64,000 nt of DNA from Geodermatophilus sp. DSM 45219 (GTDB lineage: Bacteria; Actinomycetota; Actinomycetes; Mycobacteriales; Geodermatophilaceae): NCBI RefSeq assembly GCF_900104025.1, contig NZ_FNIQ01000004.1, forward strand, positions 496,001 through 560,000. The letters run 5' to 3'. Shown piece after piece: positions 21,941 to 23,572 of the stretch. Below the pieces are notes generated by a model. The model saw only the letters and a program-made list of their open reading frames with translations. It was not told the origin of the DNA and did no database searches. The position numbers and the translations under genes were made by a program. Each line of letters opens with the position of its first letter. Position 1 is the stretch's first letter.

Positions 21941-22058
21941 GGTCGAGCGTGGAGGGAGTTCAGTCATCGTCGATCGCGGCGGGGCGAGCCGGTGACGTCG
22001 ACCCGGCTACAGGGGGGCGAGCGCACATCGTCCGGCGATAGACCGAGAACTGTCGTAC

Positions 22059-22076
22059 CCCGAACGTATGTTCGGG
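22059..22076. promoter_or_regulatory. LexA (SOS) box overlapping the -10 element of the HNH gene
   Basis: CCCGAACGTATGTTCGGG is a perfect 7-base inverted repeat around GTAT and matches the actinobacterial SOS box TCGAAC-N4-GTTCGA in 10 of 12 positions. TATGTT at 22067-22072 inside it fits the -10 consensus TAnnnT, and the first GTG of the gene begins six bases later at 22079, so the promoter appears leaderless and directly blocked by LexA. CTGTC at 22050-22054, eight bases before the box, resembles the TGTCR core of the RecA-independent PafBC promoter element. Confidence 0.8.
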
Positions 22077-22078
22077 TC

Positions 22079-23572
22079 GTGGCGGTGGTGGCAGAGCAGC
22101 AGACCCCTCTGGAGGGGCTGTTGGTCGACTGGTTGGTCGACCAGCCGCTGCTGGGTGCCCGCCTCCCGGTGTCGATGCTGACCCGAGCGCAGAAGGCCGC
22201 CGAGCTGCAGCGGGTGATCTCCGCCCGGGCGATGGCGGCGGCGTACGAGGCCGAGCTGGTGCTGGGGCTGGCCGACGACAGCCCCGACACGTTGGATCCG
22301 CCGCCCGGGCATCCGGGTGCGCGGAAGGGGTCGTGGGCTGCGGACACCGAGCTGCCCGGGGTGAGTGAGTTCTTCCCGGCCGAGCTGGCGGTGGTGCTCA
22401 ACTGCGGGCGGGGCACCGCCGCGCACCTGGCGCACCGCGCGTGGGTGTACCGGGAGAGCCTGCCGGCCACCTGGGCCGCCCTGTCCGACGGTGTGCTGGA
22501 CGAGGCGCGGGCCAAGGTGCTGGTCGACGTGCTGGCGCACACCTCCCCGGCGATCGCCCGGGTGATCGAGTCCCGGCTGCTGCCCGAGGCGGCCGGCCTG
22601 TCGACCGGCCGGCTGCGGGCCCGGGCGCTGGCGCTGCTGCTGGAGCTCGACGCCGCCGCGGTCGACAAGCGGCGCACGGACGCGCGCCGGCAGGCCGACG
22701 TGCGCTCCTACGCCTCGCACCTGGAGGGCATGTCCACGCTGGCCGCGGACCTGCCGACGCCGGTGTCCGAGGAGTGCTTCTCGATGGTCGACCAGCTGGC
22801 CGCCCTGCTCAAGGCCGACGGCGATCCCCGCCCGATCGGCGAGCTGCGCGCGGAGGTGCTGGCGGACCTGATCCGCCGGCCGTGGGACACCAGCCGACCG
22901 GCGGTCACCGCACGGCTGGACATCACCGCGGACCTGGCGAGCCTGGCCGGGCGCTCCGGCGCCGCGGGTGAGGTGAACGGACAGCCGATCACTGCCGCCC
23001 ACCTCCGTGAGCTGCTGGAAGAACTGGGCGCCCTGGGGCTGCGGGCGCCGCAGCATGGGTCGCTGGCGTTCGCGCTCACCGACGCCGAGGGCCGGCTGCT
23101 GGCCACGGCCACGCCGGCGCAGCTGGCCCGCTTGGTCCGCCGCGGCTGCCGGGACCACCCCGACCGCGACTGCGGCTGCCCCGTATTGGGCGCGCCGCCG
23201 GCCACCGAGGCCTACACGCCCACCGCCGCCCAGGACGCCTTCGTCAGCACCCGCGACCGCGCCTGCCGCTTCCCGAACTGCGGGCAACGGGTCGGCTGGA
23301 CCGACCGCGACCACGTCCTCCCGCACGCCGACGGCGGCGAGACCGACTGCGCCAACCTGTGCTGCCTGTGCCGCTCCCACCACCGGCTCAAGACCTTCGC
23401 CCGCGGCTGGCGGTTCACCATGACCCCCGACGGCACCCTGACCGTCACCACCCCCTCCGGGGTCACCCGCACCACCCGACCACCCGGCACGCGCGCCCGG
23501 GTACCGGAACCGCCGCAGACCACCGGCTCCCCGCCGACGCGGGCCGCCCCGGACGACGAGCCACCCTTCTGA
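22079..23572 (+). CDS. DUF222/13E12-family HNH endonuclease
   Basis: The 497-aa protein has the helical DUF222 domain (residues ~30-340, with SDGVLDEARAKVLVDVLAHT and DVRSYASHLEGMSTLAADLP) and a C-terminal HNH nuclease (about 395-450): CRFPNCGQRVGWTDRDHVLP, then GGETDCANLCCLCRSHHRLK, including zinc Cys and the HNH His/Asn. The family is highly repeated in actinobacteria (the 13E12 repeats of mycobacteria), and some members there are LexA-controlled; the cellular job is unknown. The SOS box directly upstream supports DNA-damage induction. Candidate GTG starts are 22079, 22085 and 22088; 22079 fits a leaderless transcript. Confidence 0.92.
   Translation: MAVVAEQQTPLEGLLVDWLVDQPLLGARLPVSMLTRAQKAAELQRVISARAMAAAYEAELVLGLADDSPDTLDPPPGHPGARKGSWAADTELPGVSEFFPAELAVVLNCGRGTAAHLAHRAWVYRESLPATWAALSDGVLDEARAKVLVDVLAHTSPAIARVIESRLLPEAAGLSTGRLRARALALLLELDAAAVDKRRTDARRQADVRSYASHLEGMSTLAADLPTPVSEECFSMVDQLAALLKADGDPRPIGELRAEVLADLIRRPWDTSRPAVTARLDITADLASLAGRSGAAGEVNGQPITAAHLRELLEELGALGLRAPQHGSLAFALTDAEGRLLATATPAQLARLVRRGCRDHPDRDCGCPVLGAPPATEAYTPTAAQDAFVSTRDRACRFPNCGQRVGWTDRDHVLPHADGGETDCANLCCLCRSHHRLKTFARGWRFTMTPDGTLTVTTPSGVTRTTRPPGTRARVPEPPQTTGSPPTRAAPDDEPPF

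Follow-up and report, generated by a model that had tools for sequence, protein, structure and literature searches.

The gene and its product

The analysed window, a stretch of 64,000 nucleotides from Geodermatophilus sp. DSM 45219, contains on its forward strand a gene (22079–23572) for a DUF222 (13E12-type) protein of 497 amino acids with an HNH-like C-terminus. The DUF222 domain was recognized by Pfam with a score of 42.2 bits (PF02720, cut-off 24.4), and the HNH domain scored 18.5 bits, which is below its cut-off of 21.4 (PF01844); the Cys, Asp-His, and His-His positions of the HNH motif are invariant in an alignment of 20 sequences. NCBIfam holds no family for the protein, a sequence search of the PDB returned a single match only, at an E-value of 0.35, and a PDB search with the predicted structure (mean pLDDT of 67) gave no match at an E-value of 0.001 or below, from which no function was inferred. 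To our knowledge, the DUF222/HNH proteins constitute a large actinobacterial family without an assigned role. The genome contains 24 matches to the gene, six of which, including the window gene itself, are close and nearly full-length.

The GTG at 22079 is preferred as start codon over a second in-frame GTG located upstream at 21992, because the relatives line up from 22079. A clean empty site was not found in genome G005, where 1.5 kb of DNA lie above the 78% relative of the downstream gene (L283), and these 1.5 kb do not match either the HNH or the transporter protein. At about positions 1200–1400 of L283, a short DUF222-like start belonging to another subfamily was noticed by eye in place of the window gene.

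Layout of the promoter region

Direct reading of the window sequence at 22050–22082 gives CTGTCGTACCCCGAACGTATGTTCGGGTCGTGG. This segment contains a TGTC of the PafBC type (22051–22054, forward strand), followed after 12 bases by the TANNNT-type -10 element TATGTT (22067–22072, forward strand), which was assigned from its position and its conservation in relatives, and after six further bases by the GTG start codon (22079–22081, forward strand), which is also predicted to form the first bases of a leaderless mRNA. The LexA (SOS) box core CGAACGTATGTTCG, to which no strand is assigned, spans 22061–22074, thus enclosing the -10 element, and is the only exact match of the 14-mer pattern in the window. 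It is part of the 18-mer CCCGAACGTATGTTCGGG at 22059–22076, whose half-sites are exact and whose centre, GTAT, is not self-complementary. The outer bases of the box are C/G rather than T/A, and it matches 10 of the 12 positions of the full 16-mer TCGAAC-N4-GTTCGA. With the GTG at 22079 as +1, TGTC lies at -28 to -25, and the 14-base LexA core (-18 to -5) extends on both sides beyond the -10 element (-12 to -7). As judged by eye, little is conserved in the relatives above approximately five bases 5' of TGTC.

A preliminary description of this DNA had placed a LexA box on the -10 element of the promoter of the HNH gene, with TATGTT in the centre of the box and the GTG six bases on, and both the overlap and the spacing are confirmed by direct reading. 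Its further statement that TGTC precedes the box by eight bases holds if counted from start to start, whereas the gap between TGTC and the 18-mer is only four bases.

The PafBC motif has been given as tTGTCRgtg-8 nt-TannnT, with the RGTG bases partly in lower case (PMC5656591; this and the other papers are cited for the sections that were accessible), and TGTC, 12 bases, and TANNNT recur in the RecA-NDp/PafBC promoters (PMC5656591; PMC8151990). The window promoter shares this spacing, but has TGTCGTACC in place of the consensus TGTCRGTG, such that its TGTCGTAC agrees with RGTG at the R and not at GTG. The form TGTCGT falls outside the three variants named for Mycobacterium tuberculosis in the accessible part of PMC8151990, differing in the sixth base. 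With respect to the leaderless start, leaderless genes make up 22% of those that M. tuberculosis expresses in exponential phase, and they carry a TANNNT centred 7–12 bases before the start site (PMC3898074). The position of the start codon in the window fits the leaderless criterion of approximately 6–7 bases after TANNNT.

Conservation among relatives of the same genus

Of 100 same-genus matches, 68 were used (6 from the own genome and 62 from others), leaving out 31 with alignments starting beyond query residue 33 as well as G007:C5:12-485. All seven motif bases are present in 59 of the 68 upstream regions, and 57 of the 68 have in addition an in-frame start codon 5–8 bases further on; in the other two (L197 and L199), the start is out of frame despite the motif. 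Six relatives show one substitution in the motif (L003, L151, L170, L176, L188, L191), L205 retains five of the seven bases, and L179 and L187 lack the motif. As controls, the best other tetramer was found in two relatives, and TGTC at other spacings in at most two. Most relatives have an in-frame start codon 6 or 7 bases after TANNNT, which supports the leaderless start suggested previously, as far as upstream sequences can tell.

The perfect LexA core was found in only six of the 68 relatives (L001, L002, L003, L149, L160, and L188), two of which (L160 and L188) carry the full TCGAAC-N4-GTTCGA, and a single-mismatch form with GTAC is present in eight. The own paralogues L004–L006 have kept TGTC, the -10 element, and the start codon, but lack the LexA half-sites. 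Owing to its overlap with the -10 element, GTTC, the downstream half, is found in most relatives, whereas GAAC, the upstream half, is limited to six of the 68. The comparison of orthologous upstream regions, which had been proposed as a check, thus upheld the PafBC-type part of the arrangement (57/68), but not a general presence of the LexA core (6/68), and reverses the weights given to the two elements before: the putative PafBC-type promoter is the conserved part, and the LexA box a sporadic overlay.

Within the genus, the LexA overlay may have arisen once or several times. On a tree holding 62 of the 68 rows, the GAAC state requires five changes (bootstrap 4–5), although the starred branches force only one, and shuffled labels were as clustered as the real LexA states in 79 of 500 cases.

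LexA boxes in the window and the genome

The exact pattern CGAACRNNYGTTCG occurs once in the 64 kb, namely at the box described here. The shorter core GAAC-N4-GTTC is not unique, being found at two more places in the window (6405 and 7342). With up to two mismatches allowed, the longer pattern has 24 matches in the window versus a mean of 13 in shuffled sequences, and 24 matches were reached in 1 of 100 shuffles. The whole genome contains 13 exact palindromes, among them those at recA and the DNA polymerase IV gene (both verified), in the region beside lexA, at three DUF222 genes (L025, L029, L034), and before a gene read as dnaB from its sequence (L027), while six of the 13 could not be tied to an SOS gene. 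The assignment of the box as a probable LexA site agrees with the finding that recA, the lexA region, and DNA polymerase IV of this organism carry the same palindrome. At the own recA, a LexA box is followed approximately 80 bases on (start to start) by a separate TGTC-N12-TANNNT.

PafBC and its motif in the own and sister genomes

The genome encodes PafB, as indicated by E-values of 2.5e-71 to chain AY of 7p5x and of 2.5e-48 to PafBC (6sj9). Close to pafA, and downstream of it, two WYL genes are adjacent to one another; one is PafB by sequence, and the other is taken as coding for a putative PafC. The genome contains five WYL matches, and the PafBC-like pair accounts for only two of them.

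TGTC-N12-TANNNT occurs once in the window when both strands are scanned. Blind motif searches, each controlled with the reversed pattern, returned TGTC-N12-TANNNT-N6-RTG at 14 places in the own genome versus one in the control, consisting of five DUF222 genes, pafA, dop, uvrB, ybaB, an amidase gene, and four places that were not assigned. Four sister genomes yielded 35 places versus four in the control. The 30 of these that were inspected (26 new ones and four earlier loci) include radA, uvrB, ybaB, pafA, and a DEDD exonuclease gene (one radA and one exonuclease verified, the others identified by eye). Amidases, AraC-like regulators, and frames stopping at once are likewise among them. The narrower TGTCGT form was found at 74 places in 26 genomes of the genus, compared to none in the control. 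The 12-base spacing equal to that of the published motif, the encoded PafB, and the occurrence of the motif before uvrB, ybaB, pafA, and dop therefore favour the earlier proposal that TGTC represents a PafBC-type core.

At pafA and dop of the own genome (L080, L081), TGTC-N12-TANNNT is followed by the start codon after six bases, and the same is seen at pafA of one sister genome (L225), hinting at a feedback on the Pup genes. An amidase gene with the PafBC-type leaderless pattern is present in the own genome and in at least three of the four sister genomes (L084, L226, L227, L231).

Occurrence across the class

A class-wide sample of 70 DUF222 genes was composed of 30 returned loci (67 genomes had a match) and 40 listed places, which were picked before their upstream sequences were seen. 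The leaderless PafBC-type layout, including TGTC, was found in 36 of the 70 genes, while the best other tetramer reached two and other spacings at most one. Upstream of the domain, 27 of the 70 genes have a perfect LexA core, where "upstream" is to be taken loosely, as the searched stretch began 60 bases 5' of the open frame, ended at the DUF222 match, and measured up to several hundred bases. In the 30-gene subset, GAAC-N4-GTTC is present in nine genes, and none combines GAAC with GTTC at a different spacing between 0 and 10. Both elements occur in eight genes, the PafBC-type layout only in 28, the LexA core only in 19, and neither in 15 (n = 70). A negative association of the two elements was considered (Fisher odds ratio 0.23, p = 0.006), but is not claimed, because it was not supported by independent pairs taken from the tree (median p = 1).

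The overlapping arrangement was searched in 394 genomes of the class and found at 19 places in 17 genomes, with none in the reversed control. Nine of these places are DUF222 genes, as identified by Pfam (L233, L235, L240, L242, L244) or tblastn (L241, L250), or known as the window gene itself (L243) and its 78% identical copy (L251), and another one (L238) appears DUF222-like by eye only. No DUF222 or sbcD gene was seen at seven of the 19 places (L234, L236, L237, L239, L245, L248, L249). The remaining two are sbcD genes from two genomes of one family (L246, L247), representing a case outside DUF222 in which TGTC is combined with GAAC-N4-GTTC over the -10 element. The start codon follows at six bases in all nine DUF222 and both sbcD cases, and also at L238.

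In a second geometry, CGAACATGNGTTCG closely follows the -10 element and an ATG lies inside the LexA box. It occurs at 29 places in 18 of the 394 genomes (none in the control), and of the 20 places inspected, 17 contain DUF222 relatives (16 by tblastn, L354 by Pfam), including three already counted in the class sample (L349, L353, L358). Several frames from this ATG are very short, and the ATG may therefore not be the start codon there.

Proposed regulation and alternative explanations

Two DNA-damage regulators, PafBC and LexA, probably control the gene through one leaderless promoter, which is most likely of the PafBC type and carries a LexA operator across its -10 element. Conservation of the sequence argues strongly for the PafBC half, moderately for the LexA half at the window locus, and better for the latter across the class. 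Genes for LexA, RecA, and PafB are all present in the genome. From the sequence we infer the following scheme of binding, induction, transcript start, and AND logic. Single-stranded DNA is known to activate PafBC (PMC11804915), which would bring the housekeeping RNA polymerase via TGTC at -28 to -25 to TATGTT, and transcription would start at the GTG itself. LexA bound to -18 to -5 would cover the -10 element and silence the gene. Damage would give rise to single-stranded DNA, leading to the destruction of LexA (through RecA) and to the activation of PafBC; because single-stranded DNA would cause both, full expression may need both events, as in an AND gate. Since most same-genus relatives keep only the PafBC half, LexA is read as a possible added brake on some of the copies.

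It seems unlikely that only the PafBC-type promoter works and that the LexA-like palindrome has arisen by chance where a -10 element continuing as GTTC lies next to a GAAC. The frequent GTTC explained by the -10 overlap, the rarity of GAAC (6/68), and the two further GAAC-N4-GTTC places in the window would all suit an accident, but the perfect core found ahead of the domain in 27 of 70 class genes, the nine cores of the 30-gene subset with none at other spacings from 0 to 10, and the full TCGAAC-N4-GTTCGA of L160 and L188 argue against it, as do the five changes of the GAAC state on the tree (bootstrap 4–5), even if the starred branches force only one. The opposite case of a plain SOS gene, with LexA as the sole regulator and TGTC not serving as a PafBC site, appears very improbable: within the genus, conservation of TGTC at the exact distance of 12 bases far exceeds that of the LexA core (57 versus 6 of 68), and the TGTC layout occurs without a perfect core in 28 of 70 class genes, although the bases after TGTC depart from the published variants and 13E12 HNH genes have been discussed as LexA targets in M. 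tuberculosis (PMC4181829). There is a similarly slight chance that it is not PafBC and LexA but a different WYL regulator that acts at the conserved block, or that the HNH protein has its own target there. The three WYL matches beyond the PafBC-like pair and the several gene copies per genome, which suggest mobility, are compatible with this proposal, which is countered by the presence of the same motif before recA and before genes for repair and the Pup system, which are no copies of the HNH gene.

If a PafBC-type promoter overlaid by a LexA operator is indeed present, it would be a compact natural promoter on which a repressor and an activator responding to one signal, single-stranded DNA, compete for one -10 element. 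As paralogues with and without the LexA half coexist in one genome (L001–L003 versus L004–L006), this logic would be measurable side by side.

Comparison with known systems and wider implications

LexA boxes were reportedly found at 13E12 genes by Davis in 2002. The 13E12 HNH genes have been discussed in an extended, partly inferred LexA regulon of M. tuberculosis (PMC4181829), and five putative HNH endonucleases, for which the name 13E12 is not used in the accessible text, are among the RecA-dependent genes after mitomycin C treatment (PMC8151990). These systems resemble the window gene in having HNH genes under SOS control, but differ in that neither a PafBC element on the same core promoter nor a leaderless start is described in the sections available. 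Several mycobacterial genes carry both a PafBC motif and an SOS box upstream (PMC8223512), and with the P1/P2 promoters of mycobacterial recA, one gene is under both PafBC and LexA (PMC11804915; PMC8223512). The two promoters of mycobacterial recA are separate, as are the two elements at recA of the own genome, whereas the window gene has one shared -10 element. Mycobacteria are thus already known to have genes under both regulators and 13E12 genes controlled by LexA; in the accessible sections of the literature searched, no overlap of both sites on one leaderless promoter, no family-wide PafBC wiring, and nothing joining PafBC with 13E12 was found. An initial search in Streptomyces venezuelae did not find the PafBC motif of M. 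smegmatis conserved (PMC9380542), which speaks against a class-wide PafBC reading.

On balance, we lean toward regarding the DUF222/HNH genes as a dedicated damage-response arm across the class, wired via leaderless PafBC promoters and LexA operators laid down repeatedly in two geometries, either on the -10 element or around the start codon. A role in the damage response is thereby suggested for a family of many copies and unknown function, and in the start-codon geometry, if true, the operator, the first mRNA bases, and the first codons would be the same DNA.

Some minor observations concern other LexA-like boxes of the own genome. TCGAACNNNNGATCGA and other near-LexA boxes are found close to the starts of genes from other DUF222 subfamilies (L010, L014, L016, L015, L017, L022, L023, L024), some of them directly after a sigma-70-like -10 element as judged by eye. 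The perfect LexA palindrome of L027 is located at positions 1501–1514, with the presumed dnaB frame following after approximately 90 bases.
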